Assembly (NCBI GenBank): GCA_021782055.1
Contig: JAJXVP010000048.1
Span: 1 to 15,278 of the forward strand
Source of the DNA: a bacterium
GTDB lineage: Bacteria > Spirochaetota > Spirochaetia > JABEVK01
DNA length: 15,278 bases
Reading direction: 5' to 3'
Under the pieces are notes generated by a model, which searched no databases, was not told the DNA's origin, and saw nothing but the letters and a program-made list of their open reading frames with translations. Positions 4,645 through 14,250 of the stretch are shown here, piece by piece (position 1 is the first letter of the stretch; each line of letters opens with the position of its first letter). The translations under genes and the position numbers were made by a program.

Positions 4645-7600
4645 ATGACTCTGAAGGGCTTCCACTCTCTCCGTGAGATTTATCGCGGGGCGGGTTCGAC
4701 CATTTTTCGTGCGGTACGCGAAAGCGACCAGGCCACCGTCATTTTAAAATGCGGTACCAGCGAGCTCCCAACAACCTCGGGAAGCTCACGGCTACGCCAT
4801 GAATACGAAATAGGTCTTCGCCTTAAGGATATCCCCGGGGTCATCAGATACCTTGATCTTCTTGATTCTGACGTTGGGTTTGTTATCGTTCTAGAAGATA
4901 TCGACGGGATGCCCCTACGGGAATTCTTTCAAACCTTTCAACCCCGTATCACTACCGTCGTCGAAATCGCCCTTAAAGTTGCGCGAGTCCTCGCCGCTGT
5001 TCACGATCAAGGCATCATTCACAAAGACCTGAATCCGTCAAACATCGTTGTCGACAGCACCGGCGATAACCTTAGGCTCATCGATTTTGAACTGGCTATT
5101 AACTTACCGCGCGAGACTCAACAACTTCAGCCGCCAGAACTGATCGAAGGAACCCTGGCCTATATTTCTCCGGAACAGACGGGCCGGATGAATTGTCCTG
5201 TGGATCTGAGAACCGATTTGTATTCTTTGGGTGTTCTGTTTTATGAGGGGTTAGCTGGTCAGCTCCCCTTTCCCACCGAGGACAAAAATGAACTGGTCCA
5301 TCGACATATCGCACTTGTTCCTGAACCACCCTTGGTTGCCTCGTCAGAATTTGAACGAGGTGTCTCGGCGGTTGTCCTCAAGCTTTTAGCCAAGGCCCCC
5401 GAAGAACGTTATCGCAGTGCCTATGGACTTATTGCCGACCTTGGTTTTCTTCTAGCCCATAGAGAAGATGAGCCAGCCCTAGCCCACTTTACTCCGGGAC
5501 GACAGGATCAATCGCATAAACTCCTTATCCCGTCGAAACTTTATGGCCGTGAAACTGAGATCCAAATACTCTTTGACACCTACGCGCAAGTAGCCTCGGG
5601 GCAAACAGCACTTGTGTTGGTCAACGGAGGGGCGGGGGTTGGTAAATCGTCCCTCATTCACGAGATTCATAAGCCACTTTCGGCCGGAAGGGGCTTTTTT
5701 TTGTCAGGCAAGTTCGATCAGTTTGGGCGTAGCTCTCCCTATTCCGCCTTTTTAGCCGCTTTTGCCTCCTTGTTCCGCCGACTTATTTCGGAGCCAGAGG
5801 ACCGCGTCCAAACCTGGAAATCCTTGGTTCTCGAAATGGCCAACGGTGCCGTGTCGGCTCTTTTTGAGGTACTTCCTGAACTCACTTGGCTCGTGGGGGA
5901 ACAACCCCCAGCTCCCGTCCTTGAGCCGCAAGAAGCGCACAACCGTTTTTTGCACCTGATGGAGGGCCTGGTCAGGGTCTTTGCGTCCCCAGCACATCCT
6001 TTAGTTCTTTTTATCGATGACTTGCAATGGGCGGACTCTGCTTCGCTGGGCCTGTTAGAACGTATTCTGAGCGAGCAGGCACTTCAAGGCCTTCTAATTT
6101 TCGGTGCCTATCGTGACCAAGAGGTCGATGAAGCTCATCCCTTAATGCTGTTATTGCGAAGACTCAACCGCGAGGACCTTTTGCTGCAACGAGTTTCACT
6201 CTCCGCCCTAACAGCACCACCGTTAAACCAGTTAGTTGCCGACACTCTTTCGCTGAGACTTGAAGACGTTCACCCTCTAACCAGCCTTCTGTTCGAAAAG
6301 ACCCAGGGCAACCCTTTCTTTTTTACGCAAATGTTGCGTCACCTTTATGAAAACGAGCTTTTGCACTACTCGCCCGAAGAACAAAAGTGGACTTGGGATA
6401 TTTCTGCGATCAAACGGCTTCATGTTTCCGAAAATGTTGTAGACTACCTTGTTGCCAGACTGAAAAAACTCCCCTCAGAAACGGCGAAAATTTTAGCAGT
6501 CGCCTCCTGCATCGGACCTAAGTTTAGCCTTAACGCTGTTTCGGCAGGGCGAGAGTCAAGTGCTGACGAGTTATTCAGTTGGCTACCGCAAGCCTTGCAG
6601 GAGGAACTAATTTCCCCCTGGGGTGATGACTACCAGTTCATGCACGATCGAATTCAACAAGCCGCTGGCCTCTTGTTGTCAGATTCAGAGAAGGCAATTG
6701 TTCACTGGCGTTTAGGAAGCTACTGGCTTCAAGAGGCACAAACGCCTCAGCTATTGAACGAAAACCTTTTTACCATTGTTGATCACCTCAATGCAGGAAT
6801 TGCCTTCCTGACGAACTCAGAGAAAGACAAGGCGCAATACGTTGCTTTGGCAGGCTATAACCTTCACGCCGGACAAAAAGCGAAAAGTTCGGCAGCCTTC
6901 CAAGAGGCTAAAGCATACCTAAAACTAGGTATAGCGATTCTGGAACCGTTTGAGCCTTGGCAAAATTATTACCAAAACCGCTTTCACCTTCAACTTGATC
7001 TTGCAGAATGTTTATCGTTTCTTGGTGATAACTCTGGTGCGTTAGAGCTTTACCAAGAAGCTCTAACCAAAGCAATGACACGGCAAGACCGCGCACTAGT
7101 GCACGAAAGTCTCATTCACTTTCATACAAACCTTGGGCAGTTTCAAGAAGCTTACAAAGTGTCTCGGGCAGCGCTAAAACCCTTTGCCGTTAGTTTACCC
7201 CTGGGTTTCGTGCCACCTGTTTTTATCAAGGATCTTATCACTTGCAAATTGCTATGGGGAAAACGCCGCGCCGAGGACCTACTCCAATTACCGGAATGCA
7301 CCGACGTGGAGCGCGCCACCGCCATGCGCCTTCTGGCCGCCGTGCTCAAGGCTTGTTACCAAATACGACCGGAACTCTGTGTGGCTAACGCCTTTAAACT
7401 TATCAACATGGCGCTGAGGTTTGGACTGATCCGTGATATGCCCGTAGCGTTTATGGCCGCAGGAGGAATCTTTCTAGGAAGCATCATCGGCAAGCACCAA
7501 GTTGGATGGGATTTTGGCCAGCTCGCCTTAGCCGTGATCGAAAAATATCAAAATGAAAAACAAAAAGCCGAGGTCAACTTTATCTATGGTTACTTTGTGC

Positions 7601-9825
7601 ATTTCTGGAAGAAATCCGCCGCTGATGCCGAGCAATACTTTCACACGGCTTATGAGTCGGCCCTACAAACGGGTGACCACTTTCACCTTTCGTGTGCGGC
7701 GTGCACCCTCGTCGAAAGTGCTTGGATAAGAGGTGAAAACTTTGATGACCTCACCAGTCTTGCCCAAGCTTACCAACCCCTTCTGACAAAAATCGACCGC
7801 CGCGAAGCTTCTGGTGCGATTCAGGCCGTGACACAAGCAATTGCCAACTTACAAGGAAAGACTCAATCGCCTTACAGTTGGGACAGTGAAGGGTTTGTTG
7901 AAGCCAACTACCGGGCCGAGATTGCTCAGTATGAATTGCGACACTTTTCGCACTTTTACTTCATTAACAAGATGCAGGCCTTGTATCTCTGGCAAGACTA
8001 CCAGGAGGCCTGGAAGATTTGCGAGGAATCCCAAAGTTACCTCAAGTATTCTGTTGGCATGCTCCACACGACGGAACACTACTTTTACCAAGGCTTGATA
8101 GCCGCCGTTCACCCCAAGTTTTCGCTGGCCCGAAAGAAAGCTCTCGTTCACGGTGTCGTTAAACGCTTTGCGGCTTGGGCCGCCGAGAACCCCGAGAACT
8201 TTGAACACAAATGGAATTTTCTAGCCGCTGAGGAAGCTCGTCTCAAGGGACAAAAACAAAAAGCTCTGCTCCTTTACCAAAAGGCTATTCAAGCTGCACA
8301 ACAGCAAAAGTCCTACCAAAATAAAGCTCTCGCTGAAGAACGTTGTGCCCTCTTTTTGCTCGACGACGGACACCAAGATTTGGCCTCTCGCCTCCTTCGG
8401 TCGGCCAAAGCTGGTTACGAGTTTTGGGGGGCCTCAGCTAAAGCTGACGCTCTTGTGGCGTCTTTTCCCGCCTTTGATTTGCAACTTTCACAGCAGGAAA
8501 GTTCCCTAAGTACTTCACGACGCAAAACGAAACGGCATTCGTTGAGTACGGACCACAACCTCGACCTAGATTTGGGCAGTATCTTAAAAGCGACGCAAGC
8601 CATCAGCCAAGAAATTCAATACGATGGACTTTTGGGCAAATTGATCAGCATCATCCTCGAGAGCGCCGGCGCTCAAAAAGGATTTATCTTAACGCCGGCT
8701 TCGAATAGTTTCAAAATCGAGGTCCAGGCCGAGCTTGGTCAACCAGCACAAATCCTGCACACGGAAGTGACCAGCAAACACGAAATTTCTGAAGCGGTCT
8801 TGCGCTATGTCAGGATGTCAAAAGAAAGTTTTATTCTTGAACCTACCACCAATATCCTGCCCTTCACCGACCAAGGCACCGCCTTAGCCTCGACAAAATC
8901 TTTACTGTGCTCACCGGTTCTGCACCAAGGTCAGGTCATCGCCCTGATCTACCTCGTGAACAACCTTTCGGATGGCGCCTTCACCCCGGCTAGCCTCGCT
9001 GTCCTTGCTATGCTTTCTGCGCAAGCGGCAATTTCTATAGAAAACGCCCGTAACTATGAGCAAATGGAAAAAAAGGTCGAGATGCGGACAAAAGACCTCA
9101 AGGCCGCCCAAGAAACGAGTAATCGCCTTCTGTTAAACATTCTTCCAGTCAGCATAGCGGACGAGTTAAAACAGTTTGGTAGAGTCGTCCCCCGAATTCA
9201 TAAGAATGCCACCGTTTTATTTACAGACTTTAGCAAATTTACCGCTTTAGCCAGCCGTATGAAACCCCTGGAGCTTATCAATACCTTGGGTCAATACTTC
9301 TCGGCCTTCGACGAAATTTGTTTACGGTATGGACTCGAGAAACTCAAAACGATCGGCGATGCCTATATGGCCGTTTGCGGGCTCCCCCTCGACAACCCTA
9401 CGCACGCGGTGAGTTCCTGCCTTGCCGCCCTAGAAATGTCAGCGTATGTCCAAGCCCAGCAAAACGAAGACAGACCCTGGAGCATCCGAGTTGGACTCCA
9501 TTCTGGTGAAGTCGTTGCCGGCGTGGTGGGTACGAATAAATTTGCCTACGATATTTGGGGCGATACGGTAAATATTGCTTCACGCATGGAATCTGCAGGA
9601 TCACCGGGACGTATTAACGTTTCGGGGGTTTTGTGGGAACAAGTTTCTCGATATTTTGAAGGCGAGGCCCGTGGACTCATCGCCGTCAAGAACCGCGGCG
9701 ACTTGTCCATGTTCTACCTCGACCGCCTTCGGGCCGAATACTCAGCTAATACCTCCGGACAACTTGCCAGCCCCGACTTCTTGAGCCAACTGAGGCGGTG
9801 GAAAGAATCGGGGGTTCAGCCGTGA
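4645..9825 (+). CDS. Giant Ser/Thr kinase - ATPase - TPR-like - GAF - adenylate cyclase protein
   Basis: This is a 1726-aa cytosolic signalling protein. Kinase domain (about 1-275): glycine loop GAGSTIF, Lys35, catalytic loop HKDLNPSN (Asp128, Asn133) and the SPEQTGR motif at 175-181; the DFG motif is DFE (147-149). ATPase domain (about 295-640): Walker A GGAGVGKSS (328-336) and Walker B IDDLQWAD (457-464). Residues 640-1300 are TPR-like helices. A GAF domain follows at about 1303-1475, then a short coiled coil. The class III cyclase has metal Asp1528 and Asp1572, base-selecting Lys1568 and Asp1640, and Asn1643/Arg1647. The Lys/Asp pair predicts adenylate, not guanylate, cyclase. AGGAGA lies 4 nt before the ATG. 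In relatives the same kinase/ATPase/GAF scaffold often ends in a histidine kinase. The gene is single, overlapping the convergent lipoprotein gene by 10 bp. The signal sensed is unknown. Confidence 0.93.
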   Translation: MTLKGFHSLREIYRGAGSTIFRAVRESDQATVILKCGTSELPTTSGSSRLRHEYEIGLRLKDIPGVIRYLDLLDSDVGFVIVLEDIDGMPLREFFQTFQPRITTVVEIALKVARVLAAVHDQGIIHKDLNPSNIVVDSTGDNLRLIDFELAINLPRETQQLQPPELIEGTLAYISPEQTGRMNCPVDLRTDLYSLGVLFYEGLAGQLPFPTEDKNELVHRHIALVPEPPLVASSEFERGVSAVVLKLLAKAPEERYRSAYGLIADLGFLLAHREDEPALAHFTPGRQDQSHKLLIPSKLYGRETEIQILFDTYAQVASGQTALVLVNGGAGVGKSSLIHEIHKPLSAGRGFFLSGKFDQFGRSSPYSAFLAAFASLFRRLISEPEDRVQTWKSLVLEMANGAVSALFEVLPELTWLVGEQPPAPVLEPQEAHNRFLHLMEGLVRVFASPAHPLVLFIDDLQWADSASLGLLERILSEQALQGLLIFGAYRDQEVDEAHPLMLLLRRLNREDLLLQRVSLSALTAPPLNQLVADTLSLRLEDVHPLTSLLFEKTQGNPFFFTQMLRHLYENELLHYSPEEQKWTWDISAIKRLHVSENVVDYLVARLKKLPSETAKILAVASCIGPKFSLNAVSAGRESSADELFSWLPQALQEELISPWGDDYQFMHDRIQQAAGLLLSDSEKAIVHWRLGSYWLQEAQTPQLLNENLFTIVDHLNAGIAFLTNSEKDKAQYVALAGYNLHAGQKAKSSAAFQEAKAYLKLGIAILEPFEPWQNYYQNRFHLQLDLAECLSFLGDNSGALELYQEALTKAMTRQDRALVHESLIHFHTNLGQFQEAYKVSRAALKPFAVSLPLGFVPPVFIKDLITCKLLWGKRRAEDLLQLPECTDVERATAMRLLAAVLKACYQIRPELCVANAFKLINMALRFGLIRDMPVAFMAAGGIFLGSIIGKHQVGWDFGQLALAVIEKYQNEKQKAEVNFIYGYFVHFWKKSAADAEQYFHTAYESALQTGDHFHLSCAACTLVESAWIRGENFDDLTSLAQAYQPLLTKIDRREASGAIQAVTQAIANLQGKTQSPYSWDSEGFVEANYRAEIAQYELRHFSHFYFINKMQALYLWQDYQEAWKICEESQSYLKYSVGMLHTTEHYFYQGLIAAVHPKFSLARKKALVHGVVKRFAAWAAENPENFEHKWNFLAAEEARLKGQKQKALLLYQKAIQAAQQQKSYQNKALAEERCALFLLDDGHQDLASRLLRSAKAGYEFWGASAKADALVASFPAFDLQLSQQESSLSTSRRKTKRHSLSTDHNLDLDLGSILKATQAISQEIQYDGLLGKLISIILESAGAQKGFILTPASNSFKIEVQAELGQPAQILHTEVTSKHEISEAVLRYVRMSKESFILEPTTNILPFTDQGTALASTKSLLCSPVLHQGQVIALIYLVNNLSDGAFTPASLAVLAMLSAQAAISIENARNYEQMEKKVEMRTKDLKAAQETSNRLLLNILPVSIADELKQFGRVVPRIHKNATVLFTDFSKFTALASRMKPLELINTLGQYFSAFDEICLRYGLEKLKTIGDAYMAVCGLPLDNPTHAVSSCLAALEMSAYVQAQQNEDRPWSIRVGLHSGEVVAGVVGTNKFAYDIWGDTVNIASRMESAGSPGRINVSGVLWEQVSRYFEGEARGLIAVKNRGDLSMFYLDRLRAEYSANTSGQLASPDFLSQLRRWKESGVQP

Positions 9826-11354
9826 GGCTGCCCAGTAGGGATTGCCTGGTGACCTTCTTCGGCCGAGATTACTGGTGTAGGCTGTTTCGTGAGAAAAACC
9901 TGCATCACTTCATTGGTTGCATGAGTACCAGTATTAGGAACGAGCGGTAAGGGGTTATCCGCCTCGATGCCGCCATAAATGTAACCGATTAAGATGGCTT
10001 TTCCCTGAGGAAACTGATCGAGGTTAAGAACACCGTTAGGCAAGGCCAAGCCCGACGTTCGCAAAGAGGGCAACTCGAGAAAATCCGCTGATGCCCCCAA
10101 CAGTCTTTGTCCAGGTAAGGGATTGGTAGCCACATATTCCGAGGTACCGGAGGTGGTTTCTACTTGAAAGGCAACATCTTCGACAAACGGAAAACCATCA
10201 TTTCGTTTTTCTTTTGAGACCCGTTGGTATGCGGCGGCATGCGCCGCTGATTGATGCAACCAATAATTACCAATGCCCCCTACCAGACAGCGGTAAACAG
10301 TTTGTGTCGCAGGTGACCAGAATCGGAGGACCGGACATTCATATTGGCTGAACTTCTGACTGAAGTTGGTATCCACGTCATACGAACCATCCGCACCAAT
10401 CGTAATCGGTTGCACATAGGCCCCAATAATCCCTGGGCGAAAGACACCCCCCAAGGCAATAATTCTCGGTGTTCCATTGGGCGAAACATCTTCTACAATA
10501 TTCCCATCACGGCGATGAAAAGGGTGTCCAGCCTGTTGCACTTGCTCCTGAGGATAGTAGACGCTACTTACCGCACCAATACGATCGAGTGTGCCAGCTT
10601 TCAATCGAAACATCCTATAGCTCTCGGTGTATTGTTGAAAAAAATCACTTCCCCCAAAAGCCCGGTATTGCCCATCAAAAACTTGTCCAAATACCAAAAA
10701 GAACTGCCCGTTAAGATTTAGGAGCGCACCACCTGTTACTTTGTACGCTGGGTCGTGTGTAATTTGAATAGCCGCGAGAATCTTGGCGGGATCTGGAGAC
10801 ACCTTTTGAATTTCTGCAATCAAAGCGGGAACGTTGAGGCTAAGTAAGGCATCTGATGTTGCCATATCACTACCGTCGGCTTTCCAACCGTACCCGCCAG
10901 CAATGTAGAGAAGATTGCTTTGCGGATCAAAATAAAATTCGGAATTTGTTACACTTAACGCCGTAGCGATTTCTGGAGGTAATAACTTTAAAGAAAACCT
11001 GTGGAGTTCCCCCGTTGCTGGATTCAACGTCAACAAAGCGTTATTGAAAGTATTCTGTGGAAAGTTCTGATTAGGGGCCCCTTCAAAGGTATGTAAACCG
11101 CCTTTGGTCGTTTGCACACCCGGTTGACGCCCCCCGACTAAAAGTGAAATGACTCCTTGACCATCGGGCGTCGGTTCTTCGGCATGAGCATACGACTGAA
11201 GGGCCTGCGCCGGAAGCGACGACACCGGTACAAAACTCACGTTGAAGGGTAACTGCGGTGAACTCGTTTGGGGTGTCGTGGATTGAGGGGCTTTGACCTG
11301 TGGTGAACACGCCAAGAAAAGAACGAGTGACAAGACTCCAAGTAGAAATCTCAT
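9816..11354 (-). CDS. Kelch-type beta-propeller lipoprotein
   Basis: This is a 512-aa predicted surface lipoprotein. The N-terminus is a signal peptide ending at Ala15-Cys16 (MRFLLGVLSLVLFLAC), followed by a Pro/Thr/Ser/Gln-rich linker (17-36). The rest shows at least six kelch-like strand ends of the form hydrophobic-x-Gly-Gly, at about 71-75 (LLVGG), 150-154 (YIAGG), 219-224 (FLVFGQ), 298-303 (IIALGG), 356-360 (CLVGG) and 454-462 (ending YGG). This suggests a six-blade beta-propeller with long loops. Such propellers usually bind proteins or sugars; no enzyme site is seen. It is the last gene of the three-gene operon. Its ATG overlaps the upstream stop (ATGA, 11354-11351), and its ribosome binding site GAGGAG lies inside the end of that gene. 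Its 3' end overlaps the convergent cyclase gene by 10 bp. Confidence 0.82.
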   Translation of the reverse strand: MRFLLGVLSLVLFLACSPQVKAPQSTTPQTSSPQLPFNVSFVPVSSLPAQALQSYAHAEEPTPDGQGVISLLVGGRQPGVQTTKGGLHTFEGAPNQNFPQNTFNNALLTLNPATGELHRFSLKLLPPEIATALSVTNSEFYFDPQSNLLYIAGGYGWKADGSDMATSDALLSLNVPALIAEIQKVSPDPAKILAAIQITHDPAYKVTGGALLNLNGQFFLVFGQVFDGQYRAFGGSDFFQQYTESYRMFRLKAGTLDRIGAVSSVYYPQEQVQQAGHPFHRRDGNIVEDVSPNGTPRIIALGGVFRPGIIGAYVQPITIGADGSYDVDTNFSQKFSQYECPVLRFWSPATQTVYRCLVGGIGNYWLHQSAAHAAAYQRVSKEKRNDGFPFVEDVAFQVETTSGTSEYVATNPLPGQRLLGASADFLELPSLRTSGLALPNGVLNLDQFPQGKAILIGYIYGGIEADNPLPLVPNTGTHATNEVMQVFLTKQPTPVISAEEGHQAIPTGQPHG

Positions 11355-13210
11355 TTTTTCTCCTCTTGAGTTTGAACAGGGGTTTGTTGAATTTGCTTTA
11401 TATAATAAAGAACAGTCGTGAGCTTGTTCGGCGAAAAGTCGCGCGACAGCGGCATATAGCGGGGGTCGTTGATATCGCGAGTCATGTAGAATGGAATAGC
11501 CCCTGACGAAATCAAATAACCGTTAAGATCATAGGGAGGTGTATCTGCACCGTAAACTTTTGTCCATGGCGGATTATTGCCAAAAATGAAGAAGGTATTT
11601 TGGTCAGTTAAGTCTATTTTGTTTCGCATCCCTGGAAACAATTTCATATAAGGAGCCATCAAAGCTTGAACCAGCTCCCACGAAGGATTTTCATTCACCT
11701 GGTAACTTGACCAAAGGACGACCGATATTGTTTTCTCTTGTGAGACTCCTGTTTTTGGATCGGGCTTTTGATCGGCGTAAAGCCATAAGAAATACAGTTG
11801 TCCATCAAGCTCAGCGGTGCGGCTCCCTGGGTCTTTTACTGCACTGAGAGTGACCTCGGCCCAACCCCATGCATCCGTTAAACCAAGTGTTGCCACCAAA
11901 GCCCCGTCAGCCGAAGGAGTGTCTCCGGGGTTGGTCGGGGGAACCGTAGCGCCGGGCGTGTCCCCATGCACGGGTACAACCTGTACTTTAAGCGGAAAAT
12001 CTTTCAGTGGGTTACCAAATCGCGTGACCCGAACCCGGGCTGTCAGCCGCGACAAGCTACTCCCAAGCTCACTAGTCATGCGCAAGGAACGATCATCGGC
12101 CGCAAACCACAAACCATCCTCAGCCTCTTGAAATAAAATTCCTTTGTTAGGAGACCTCAAAATAAGGGGATGAGCTGCTAACAATTGAATTTGGTCTGGG
12201 TTAGTGAGTTTAAAATCGACAACACCAGAGTTGCTATTGTAGGTTGCGTCGTTATATTGAAAGCTGCCTAGCTCGACATAGGTACGTCCAGGAACTTTAA
12301 TACTAACGAACCAGTCGCCTAAGTTGCAGGGAGGACCACCGGGCCAACTTCGGCATACGGCATTTGCCAAATCCAACGAGACGAAGGACTGAGTGGTATT
12401 AAGTTGAAAGGGAAAGGAGTTTAATGAGGGGTCGTTCCAAGCGGCCTCTGGTCCTAAAGGCCTGCTTTGAAGCCACCTTGGTCCGGGGGCCTGTAGTGGA
12501 TCCCCCACAAGCTGAGGTCCCACCATGGCGGTCAGCCGTCCCAGTCGGAACCCTTGGTTCACAGGGCGATTTAGGTCGCCATCGATGTAACCACCCGACA
12601 CATTGTCATAGCCATCTAAAACGAATCGAATCGATAAAAGAACCTGATTCTCGTCATGAAGTGACGCGGCTATCAGAGCATCAAGGACCGCCGATTTTCC
12701 GTAAGGGAATTGCTTTGCATCAAACCGAACCACGGACCTGTAGAATCCACAGGCATTAAAGTCGCCACCAGGACTTCCCCAGCCATAGTCTTGATTCCAG
12801 CCGCGTTCGGGCAACACGGCGTTAAACCAGGAACTATTAAGCGAACAAGGATCAAGATTTCCGATAGCAGAACTTCCATCGGCAAAGGTCAATTTCATTT
12901 GCAACCCAAAGATGGTTGAGACCCCTTGCTGATAAACATCCAGGTCGACAATTTTGGCGGGCGAGGGCACATCCGTTGTCACGACTTCCATCCCCACAAG
13001 CCCATCCGCAGGTTGGCTAATCCCTTGGGTATCCCAACTATTGATCACTTGACAGTTGCGAAACTGAAAGTAGTGCAGACCCATCGGCTCTTGCCAGGGC
13101 GATGGATTAGTTACCGAGGGATCATAATGCTGTGGATCATTATCCACTGTAGACGGGTCAGTAAAAAACTGGCCGGCAAAACAAAACCGGGGAAAATCAA
13201 GATAGCTCAT
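11351..13210 (-). CDS. Stand-alone protein resembling the N-terminal half of VioB/RebD
   Basis: This is a 619-aa protein with no signal peptide or membrane helix, so cytosolic. Its opening (MSYLDFPRFCFAG, then a Thr-Val-Asp-Asn-Asp-Pro-x-His stretch at 21-28) closely follows the start of VioB (SILDFPRIHF...DPHGH, from memory). Other matches come in the same order: DGLVG (69-73), a Leu-Asp-Leu-Ala-x-Ala region ending in LGDW (279-300) against VioB's LACAI...LGD, and RYMPLSRDFSPNKL (584-597) against VioB's YMPSTRELSAPKA. VioB/RebD/StaD are about 1000-aa haem-associated enzymes that couple two tryptophan-derived imines. Their C-terminal ferritin-like domain is absent here, so the reaction cannot be assumed to be the same. 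AGGA stands a few nt before the ATG, which overlaps the upstream stop (ATGA, 13210-13207). It is the middle gene of the operon. Family placement is from remembered sequence, not a search. Confidence 0.7.
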   Translation of the reverse strand: MSYLDFPRFCFAGQFFTDPSTVDNDPQHYDPSVTNPSPWQEPMGLHYFQFRNCQVINSWDTQGISQPADGLVGMEVVTTDVPSPAKIVDLDVYQQGVSTIFGLQMKLTFADGSSAIGNLDPCSLNSSWFNAVLPERGWNQDYGWGSPGGDFNACGFYRSVVRFDAKQFPYGKSAVLDALIAASLHDENQVLLSIRFVLDGYDNVSGGYIDGDLNRPVNQGFRLGRLTAMVGPQLVGDPLQAPGPRWLQSRPLGPEAAWNDPSLNSFPFQLNTTQSFVSLDLANAVCRSWPGGPPCNLGDWFVSIKVPGRTYVELGSFQYNDATYNSNSGVVDFKLTNPDQIQLLAAHPLILRSPNKGILFQEAEDGLWFAADDRSLRMTSELGSSLSRLTARVRVTRFGNPLKDFPLKVQVVPVHGDTPGATVPPTNPGDTPSADGALVATLGLTDAWGWAEVTLSAVKDPGSRTAELDGQLYFLWLYADQKPDPKTGVSQEKTISVVLWSSYQVNENPSWELVQALMAPYMKLFPGMRNKIDLTDQNTFFIFGNNPPWTKVYGADTPPYDLNGYLISSGAIPFYMTRDINDPRYMPLSRDFSPNKLTTVLYYIKQIQQTPVQTQEEKK

Positions 13211-14250
13211 AGGACTTCCTTATCTTTCCAGAATAAGCGCGGAAAGCGCTCATGGGCGTGATGCCTGTAGACTTCTTTTTGGGTGGTATCGAGCTCTTGA
13301 GCAAAAAACATTATCAGATAGATCGGCTGACGGTTATCCTGATCCATCAAGCGATCTTTCGTTTCGTTAAGAACTAGCCCATAGCAGACACGGTCTAGGT
13401 TCTGTTGCTCACAATATCGAACAGAAGCAAGAACGATATTTTCATAAGCCTTGAAGTTCTCTGCTAGAAAACCACCCTCTGTCAGTTCTAAATGGCGAGG
13501 ATGACGAATAAATATTTGTGTTCCGGTCAAACGACCATGCTGTCGAGCGTTTATAACAACAGCCTTTTGGTAGCTAGTCAAAAAGTCAAAGATTTCTTCA
13601 CCATAGGAACTTATATCAATGGAAACACCAGGATGGGTGTTTTTCCGATAGGAATGCAAACAGCACGTGACAATTTCTTGTGCTTCGTGGGAGGACAGGG
13701 AACCCTCACGGATTTCAATTTCGCTCCCCGACTTCTCAAAATATCGAACATGTCGTCGAAGATGCTGATGACGCGCCAAGAAGGCTTGGGCAGTTCCTTT
13801 TCCTGAAACCGAAATGGAACCGGCTTCCAGAATCTTTTCGGCGAAGATATGTGGAATCTTCTGCAAAGCACGAGGAAACTCCTCTCGTAGATCCGGATCA
13901 ATATAACCGACATAGTAGCCCTGCGGGTAAACTTCCAATAATTTTTTGATCATGACTTCTAAAACGGCTACGCGGTCAGCCTCTGACGAGAAAAAGAACG
14001 TCGTGTTGGTTCCCAGATGATTTCCTGGTCCAAAACAGTGCTTCATAAACACCGAAGTGGCAACTAAAACATTCGAGAGTCCCACCAATTGCCCAGAATC
14101 AGAATAAACCTTAAGTAATCTCGTTTTTTCAGGGACGTTGGTTAAAAGATCAAGTAAATCAAGGGAGAGTCCCCTCGCATGGAGACAAGGCGCCAAAAGC
14201 GATTTTTCCTCGGCCGAAAGAGGGACAGCAGGTGTTATGACAGCGTTCAT
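13207..14250 (-). CDS. GNAT/FemAB-like acyltransferase, substrate unknown
   Basis: This is a 347-aa soluble protein. The centre (about 158-180), with a His-Leu-Arg-Arg-His-Val-Arg-Tyr pattern leading to FEKSGSEIEIREG, resembles the linker helix and strand that open the second GNAT fold in BioF2/FemAB-like acyltransferases. The pattern HGRLTGTQIFIRH (beta strand with Gly) and the late helix before LDRVCYG also fit that fold. No strict acetyl-CoA loop (Q/R-x-x-G-x-G/A) is visible, so donor and acceptor are unknown; an amino acid or small-molecule acceptor is plausible. GGAGG (14260-14256) lies 5 nt before the ATG, a strong ribosome binding site. It is the first gene of the operon with the VioB-like and kelch lipoprotein genes. 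Confidence 0.6.
   Translation of the reverse strand: MNAVITPAVPLSAEEKSLLAPCLHARGLSLDLLDLLTNVPEKTRLLKVYSDSGQLVGLSNVLVATSVFMKHCFGPGNHLGTNTTFFFSSEADRVAVLEVMIKKLLEVYPQGYYVGYIDPDLREEFPRALQKIPHIFAEKILEAGSISVSGKGTAQAFLARHQHLRRHVRYFEKSGSEIEIREGSLSSHEAQEIVTCCLHSYRKNTHPGVSIDISSYGEEIFDFLTSYQKAVVINARQHGRLTGTQIFIRHPRHLELTEGGFLAENFKAYENIVLASVRYCEQQNLDRVCYGLVLNETKDRLMDQDNRQPIYLIMFFAQELDTTQKEVYRHHAHERFPRLFWKDKEVL

Follow-up and report, generated by a model that had tools for sequence, protein, structure and literature searches.

A stand-alone homologue of the N-terminal half of VioB/RebD, encoded with a kelch-like lipoprotein beside a giant kinase/cyclase gene in a spirochaete contig

The window analysed here, which is the whole 15,278-nucleotide stretch of contig JAJXVP010000048.1 (assembly GCA_021782055.1, Spirochaetota), contains an apparent three-gene operon on the minus strand. 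Its middle gene, which overlaps its neighbour on either side by an ATGA, encodes a protein of 619 residues that resembles the N-terminal half of VioB and is called VioB-N below. The operon lies tail to tail with a gene for a 1726-residue kinase/cyclase protein, and the features are as follows:

13210..11351, minus strand: VioB-N, 619 residues, ATG start; open reading frame (ORF) with a profile match to the N-terminal half of VioB/RebD
11354..9816, minus strand: kelch-like lipoprotein, 512 residues, partner gene with an ATGA overlap with the VioB-N gene
14250..13207, minus strand: protein of no assigned family, 347 residues, first gene of the operon, with an ATGA overlap with VioB-N
4645..9825, plus strand: Ser/Thr kinase-AAA_16-TPR-like-GAF-class III cyclase protein, 1726 residues, assigned from Pfam domains

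The original prediction had located the VioB-N gene at 11351..13210; these coordinates are correct, with the amendment that the ORF runs on the minus strand, the plus-strand frame being interrupted by many stops. The ordered motif set on which that prediction was based is present in the order given: LDFPR (residues 4-8), NDPQH (24-28), DGLVG (69-73), LANA (281-284), LGD (297-299) and YMPLSR (585-590). As a single sequence, the 619-residue protein has no Pfam or NCBIfam match and a PDB match at chance level only, and a profile search of PDB gave two matches (E ~0.1 over 53 residues) that were taken as chance.

VioB, RebD and StaD are the iminophenyl-pyruvate dimer and chromopyrrolic acid synthases. 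To place the window protein, a profile of 40 relatives, itself included (A1), was compared with a profile of residues 1-600 of 33 VioB/RebD proteins, and the two matched from end to end in a profile-profile search (probability 99.6, E 3.1e-24, 547 columns). A1 also matched the 16 VioB rows alone (E 2.5e-16) and the 16 RebD-like rows alone (E 7e-20), and ten decoy profiles (the VioB C-half, a reversed VioB-N, four versions of VioB-N with shuffled columns, and one profile each for kelch, ferritin-like, cyclase and RPE65) gave E values of 0.19-0.81. The first and last motifs, DGLVG, LANA and LGD align opposite their VioB counterparts, at about 20% identity to VioB/RebD over the profile alignment, which stops at VioB residue 584; the ferritin-like domain (PF12902) of that VioB begins near residue 605. 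We regard the homology to the N-terminal half of VioB as practically certain, and the profile comparison thus bears out the earlier suggestion of a stand-alone VioB/RebD N-terminal half that ends before the ferritin-like half. Plain HMMER was weaker: A1 matched VioB at E 2.1e-4, with the match broken into five collinear pieces of which none was significant singly, whereas a profile of clade 2, a group of relatives described below, and a combined profile reached VioB at E 9e-13 and 3.2e-13, respectively (all in a small ORF set). Since the clade-2 profile reaches VioB far better than A1 does, clade 2 forms a bridge to VioB. The reference VioB comes from a Chromobacterium subtsugae genome (locus L040; a 998-residue gene in L058), where the following gene starts like a flavin adenine dinucleotide (FAD) monooxygenase and is, we assume, VioC; many of the other VioB/RebD rows carry the name VioB or 'ferritin-like' in their sources.

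At least 201 relatives of the 619-residue protein were found at E <= 0.001, and the 120 listed among them share 40-100% identity over 97-100% of the query, are 598-654 residues long and carry no Pfam domain, in agreement with the proposal that the protein defines a separate family. When GTDB genomes were scanned with this family's profile, 43 loci were obtained. Clade 1 (L001-L025 and the window) consists of proteins 40-46% identical to the window protein, and clade 2 (L026-L041 and L043) of proteins of ~560-670 residues that are ~23-33% identical to it. Clade 3, which was reached via distant homologues of the window lipoprotein, has VioB-N proteins of ~660-735 residues, matching the VioB-N profile with a probability of 99.7 (E 3.1e-25) and clade 2 with 98.4. 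In a tree of 64 rows, for which clade 1 and VioB/RebD were sampled, each group falls on one side of a branch (supports of 100/100 for clade 1, 100/100 for VioB/RebD, 97/88 for clade 3 and 83/95 for clade 2), with clade 1 beside clade 2 and clade 3 beside VioB/RebD in a topology that carries a program warning about long branches joining at the centre. A single origin of the two kelch-type lineages was rejected by the approximately unbiased test (p 2e-83), a result to be read with the group having been chosen after the tree was viewed, 3 of its 26 rows lacking a kelch neighbour and long branches meeting. The distribution is patchy, the clade-1 profile matching 3 of 196 genomes of one host's wider family and the clade-3 profile 4 of 395 genomes of its phylum. 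A scan of viral contigs with one fusion protein (see below), which reaches close relatives only, gave no matches. At one locus of an Acidobacteria metagenome-assembled genome (MAG; L042:4554-5327), a 52-residue VioB-N stub follows a kinase gene and is itself followed by a 132-residue kelch fragment, with no ferritin-like match at the locus; its appearance is that of a module copy that has decayed or was misassembled.

The partner genes were examined by scanning the loci with purpose-built profiles for ferritin-like, kelch-like and cyclase genes; the L042 stub, duplicates of listed loci, and L026 and L005, where the contig ends, were left out of the counts. In clade 2, a ferritin-like (PF12902) gene adjoins VioB-N on the same strand, at <=175 bases, in all 23 distinct testable loci (L027-L041, L043, L061, L067-L071 and L090; L036 and L040 recur as L062 and L063, and the gene of L026 is cut off by the end of its contig), and none of the scanned clade-2 loci has a kelch or cyclase match. 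Further clade-2 places outside this count (L046, L047, L073 and L074/L075) likewise have an adjoining ferritin-like gene. In clade 1, a kelch-like gene lies directly downstream in 25/25 testable loci, as it does on the same strand in the window, and the purpose-built ferritin hidden Markov models (HMMs) found a ferritin-like gene in none of the 26 loci. Nine of the 11 clade-3 genes scanned have a kelch-like gene and nine an adjacent cyclase gene, the first clade-3 copy in L086 being incomplete within the chosen stretch.

The same association was seen in 72 genomes of one genus, apparently Algoriphagus, where a kelch gene directly follows 12/12 clade-1 and 13/13 clade-3 genes, a PF12902 gene follows 8/8 clade-2 genes, and 25 of the 28 kelch-type genes follow a VioB-N gene. 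PF12902 was found at 17 places in these genomes, eight beside a clade-2 VioB-N and nine elsewhere, so it also occurs without VioB-N. A genetic partnership between VioB-N and the kelch gene is thus very probable. Judged from gene content, clade 2 is a split VioB, and the ferritin-like partner has been swapped for a kelch-like one in the lineage of the window. As a separate observation, an Algoriphagus genome encodes a protein of ~1036 residues (L059:5326-8436) that joins a ferritin-like domain to a long stretch which our profiles do not identify as VioB-N.

The strongest evidence that VioB-N and the kelch-like protein work as one unit comes from fusion proteins, which were seen in clade 3 only. 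Five of the 62 proteins found in a clade-3 profile search (1151-1154 residues) consist of a clade-3 VioB-N from residue 1 to ~719 (E <1e-237) and a kelch-like part at ~736-1153 (E 1e-52 to 9e-59). P0212, one of the five, shares 61% (first half) and 52% (second half) identity with the products of two genes that lie separately, side by side, in L085. Such a fusion is the kelch counterpart of VioB. The lipoprotein of the window has 16 homologues, and its Cys16 is kept in >=90% of them; a homologue in L021 is without the lipobox Cys, and the kelch protein of L085 is without an evident signal. The name 'kelch' is based on Pfam matches in relatives and on repeated glycine pairs in the lipoprotein alignment, the 512-residue protein of the window itself having no Pfam kelch match.

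We also looked for residues that could indicate the chemistry of VioB-N. A column was counted as conserved when it reached >=70% in each group (40 clade-1, 21 clade-2, 10 clade-3 and 33 VioB/RebD rows, with L095 and L068 left out), and 20 columns are conserved in all four, among them R8, D89, R245, E362 and R590, suggesting a pocket that could hold a carboxylate. The original prediction had raised the possibility of conserved haem or metal ligands; there is no His or Cys among the 20 columns, which speaks against a haem or metal site common to these N-terminal halves. VioB is described as a heme protein in PMC2810235, and PMC10784701 reports chromopyrrolic acid obtained from tryptophan with RebO and RebD and cites a paper in which StaD is called a hemoprotein.

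Neighbouring oxidase genes were found in some of the relatives. A BBE-type FAD oxidase gene is nearby in 3/10 clade-3 loci screened and near the clade-2 gene in two Chromobacterium genomes (L036, identical to L062, and L038), a FAD_binding_4/BBE gene directly adjoining that of L036. Of 8 plasmid records found with a relative, 5 were inspected and all 5 have an annotated 'ferritin-like protein' gene next; one of these, from Mycetohabitans, also carries a LodA/GoxA-type oxidase, a tryptophan 7-halogenase and ebo-type genes. These neighbours fit an oxidase-fed chemistry like that of VioA/VioB, but most clade-2 loci have no such oxidase by two flavin-oxidase profiles. As the original prediction had noted for the window, no oxidase partner was found there: the two HMMs (flavin amine and BBE oxidases, VioA and RebO themselves not being queries) gave no matches in the 26 clade-1 loci, that is, in the window and 25 related loci, and a Pfam scan of the larger window genes revealed no VioA/RebO-type amino-acid oxidase partner.

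The kinase, P-loop and cyclase motifs that were sought are all present in the 1726-residue protein, whose homologues were found in 18/18 genomes searched. Its gene is linked to VioB-N: a kinase gene adjoins VioB-N in 23/26 clade-1 loci, the remaining three having it at another place in the locus, and in most relatives it lies upstream and runs in the same direction. In 21 clade-1 loci, a neighbouring gene on the VioB-N strand is of cyclase type, some of these genes being clipped by the contig start. The exceptions in distance or orientation are L011, where the kinase lies 5.3 kb off, L022, where it is on the other strand and has a SpoIIE end, and the window, where it is convergent; the adjacent kinase of L005 has a histidine-kinase end and that of L014 a weaker cyclase end. 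A GAF domain is present in every clade-1 kinase scanned.

To see what these kinases adjoin elsewhere, we collected kinase loci away from VioB-N, comprising 7 near-full-span matches in 18 clade-1 genomes and 15 matches at E <1e-150 in 345 genomes of the phylum, in which at most two candidates were scored per genome. In each of the 22 loci fetched (L078-L084 and L116-L130), a redox enzyme is encoded no more than two genes away from the kinase, and the enzymes beside the giant kinase are:

lipoxygenase, with or without a catalase-like gene: L079, L116, L118, L119, L121-L123
RPE65-family carotenoid oxygenase: L080, L081, L083, L084, L126, L129
MpaB-type oxygenase: L082, L127, L128, L130
flavin amine oxidase: L078, L117, L124, L125
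FAD_binding_4/ALO oxidase: L120

Twelve of these assignments were made by Pfam and ten by similarity to those, and the catalase-like label is weak (a single Pfam match below its cut-off, in L079, and no match in L116). The lipoxygenase gene of L119 lies on the opposite strand, and the directly adjoining gene there belongs to no Pfam family; in L123-L125, L128 and L130 one gene separates the kinase from the enzyme. Searched at E 1e-6, profiles of six such enzyme families, which were built from these 22 loci and are therefore circular for them, gave no matches in the 26 loci of clade 1. Since 22/22 of the other kinases have an enzyme and the six families gave no matches here, the genes for VioB-N and the kelch-like protein occupy the position that an enzyme gene has in the others.

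The reading that we consider best, and towards which we lean slightly, is that VioB-N and the kelch-like protein form a small-molecule enzyme unit tied to kinase/cyclic AMP (cAMP) signalling. The VioB N-terminal module would act without its ferritin-like half, and the kelch-like propeller lipoprotein encoded by the next gene would replace the ferritin-like partner as a second component, possibly in a physical complex. VioB-N would then bind and convert or condense a carboxylate-bearing, probably oxidised substrate, relying on the conserved Arg and acidic residues R8, D89, R245, E362 and R590 and not on a haem or metal ligand that is conserved, and the giant kinase/AAA/GAF/adenylate-cyclase protein would read out the product or the state of the enzyme. 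Taken separately, it is somewhat probable that the unit is an enzyme, and that the kinase/cyclase senses its product falls a little short of an even chance. In a wider and distinctly tentative reading, VioB-N with a ferritin-like partner and VioB-N with a kelch-like partner could be two bidomain solutions, the kelch version serving as the enzyme of a signalling system with interchangeable redox enzymes (lipoxygenase with a catalase-like protein, carotenoid oxygenase, MpaB, FAD oxidases or VioB-N/kelch), a co-encoded kinase/STAND-ATPase/GAF sensor and an output by cAMP or phosphorylation. If so, it might resemble, by analogy, the use of oxylipins and retinoids as small signals in animals. The combination points to an unexplored bacterial small-molecule signalling system, and the neighbourhood of the kinases suggests an enzyme-plus-receptor layout in Bacteroidota. 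Natural proteins in which one half is absent, split off or swapped also make the role of the N-terminal half of VioB/RebD directly testable, the kelch fusions offering a clean comparison with VioB.

Several observations weigh against this reading. The iron or haem of VioB may lie wholly in the ferritin-like half, and VioB-N by itself would then not have to be an enzyme. Inspection by eye shows no signal peptide in VioB-N, and the window partner looks like a lipoprotein, so the two may occupy different compartments. The Pfam matches behind the kelch label occur in relatives only and are all below the cut-offs, no fusion was seen in clade 1, and the direct profile match between clades 3 and 1 is weak (70.5%, 113 columns). 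The partnership has exceptions on both sides: three kelch genes of the 72 genomes (L091-L093) have no VioB-N neighbour, and among the clade-3 type genes from outside the sampled genus, L094 and L095 have no kelch gene nearby, with a 7TMR-DISM histidine kinase in place of the cyclase in L094, and L068 has neither kelch nor cyclase. Several of the 22 kinase loci share ancestry, and their association with redox enzymes stands without a background control. In the window itself, the convergent orientation of the kinase gene means that it is not transcribed together with the operon.

This last point also favours the alternative that survives best, which we consider possible but the less probable account, namely that the link is regulatory only, with the kinase controlling an ordinary enzyme operon and sensing none of its products. 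It is in keeping with the variable output ends of the adjacent kinases (histidine kinase in L005, SpoIIE phosphatase in L022, weaker cyclase in L014) next to a constant VioB-N. However, the same kinase family adjoins changing enzymes in 22/22 fetched loci, which suggests more than shared regulation, and the GAF domain of each clade-1 kinase scanned is a possible ligand site.

A second alternative, somewhat more doubtful, holds that VioB-N is a non-catalytic ligand-binding or scaffold module, which in VioB presents the substrate to the ferritin-like half and here acts with the kelch lipoprotein as a soluble sensor informing the kinase/cyclase of an external or internal ligand. The lack of a His or Cys conserved across the four groups would agree with such a role, as would the cyclase or histidine-kinase genes that lie near ferritin-less VioB-N even without kelch (L094 and L095) and the FIST or 7TMR-DISM sensor domains of clade-3 loci. 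On the other hand, the other giant kinases pair with enzymes and not with binding proteins, some clade-2 genes stand beside oxidase or halogenase genes (one of five plasmids; L036), and a BBE-type FAD oxidase is near 3/10 clade-3 loci. The third alternative, that VioB-N is a VioB-type imine dimer synthase using a ferritin-like partner encoded elsewhere in the genome, is very improbable and mostly rejected for clade 1: although the homology spans the whole N-terminal half, split VioB-N/ferritin pairs exist and 6/23 clade-1 genomes searched have a PF12902 match somewhere, in two of these six (G010 and G024) the gene sits beside a separate clade-2 VioB-N, 17 of the 23, a set that contains incomplete MAGs, have no PF12902 match (named isolates among them), and the 26 loci lack a flavin amine or BBE oxidase match.

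The window protein can also be compared with the closest known systems. It shares with VioB/RebD/StaD homology over residues 1-584, the DFPR opening and the YMPxxRxxSxxK closing motif, but differs in lacking the PF12902 half and a nearby gene for a screened FAD oxidase and in having a kelch partner. It is not a VioB, because the defining ferritin-like half was looked for and is absent, and it may well work on VioB-like chemistry. The split VioB pairs of clade 2 (for example in Dyadobacter, Chromobacterium, and Azospirillum and Mycetohabitans plasmids) also have a stand-alone VioB-N and are a neighbouring lineage in the tree, whereas they are followed by a PF12902 gene, of which there is none downstream in the window, and have no kelch or cyclase. 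The clade-3 module and its fusions (P0212 and four others) share the kelch-type partner, usually a cyclase gene, and the lack of a ferritin-like neighbour; their cyclases, however, come with 7TMR-DISM or GAF instead of kinase/AAA, and some have a BBE FAD oxidase gene. The 1726-residue protein shares its architecture with giant Ser/Thr kinase-AAA-GAF proteins of histidine-kinase or cyclase output, which elsewhere lie beside lipoxygenase, carotenoid oxygenase, MpaB or FAD oxidase and in clade 1 beside VioB-N and kelch. A thin search of open-licence papers gave nothing relevant on VioB with kelch and cyclase, nor on the kinase or the kinase/oxygenase layout.

The 347-residue protein encoded at 13207-14250 has no match in Pfam, NCBIfam, PADLOC or PDB and no homologue among the ORFs of 57 compared loci. 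A reading of the locus as a defence system was dropped, since, among the 38 PADLOC matches of the 1726-residue protein, the 25 listed map to the kinase or the cyclase domain, and there is none for the three operon proteins. In five clade-3 loci (L087:4217-9043, L088 and L096-L098), VioB-N/kelch comes directly after genes for a FIST-domain protein and a GAF adenylate cyclase, as checked by Pfam in L087 and by similarity in the others; this pair would be a second sensor type in the clade-3 module. A Gloeothece verrucosa plasmid carries, 7 kb from its split VioB pair, a divergent second VioB-N-like protein of 667 residues (L068:899-2902), whose gene adjoins one for a 444-residue protein without a Pfam family. 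Finally, the split VioB pairs of L069 and L071 are plasmid-borne and lie beside ebo-type genes, and these loci are possible uncharacterised pigment or alkaloid clusters; the ebo cluster is treated in PMC5133447 and PMC6282210.

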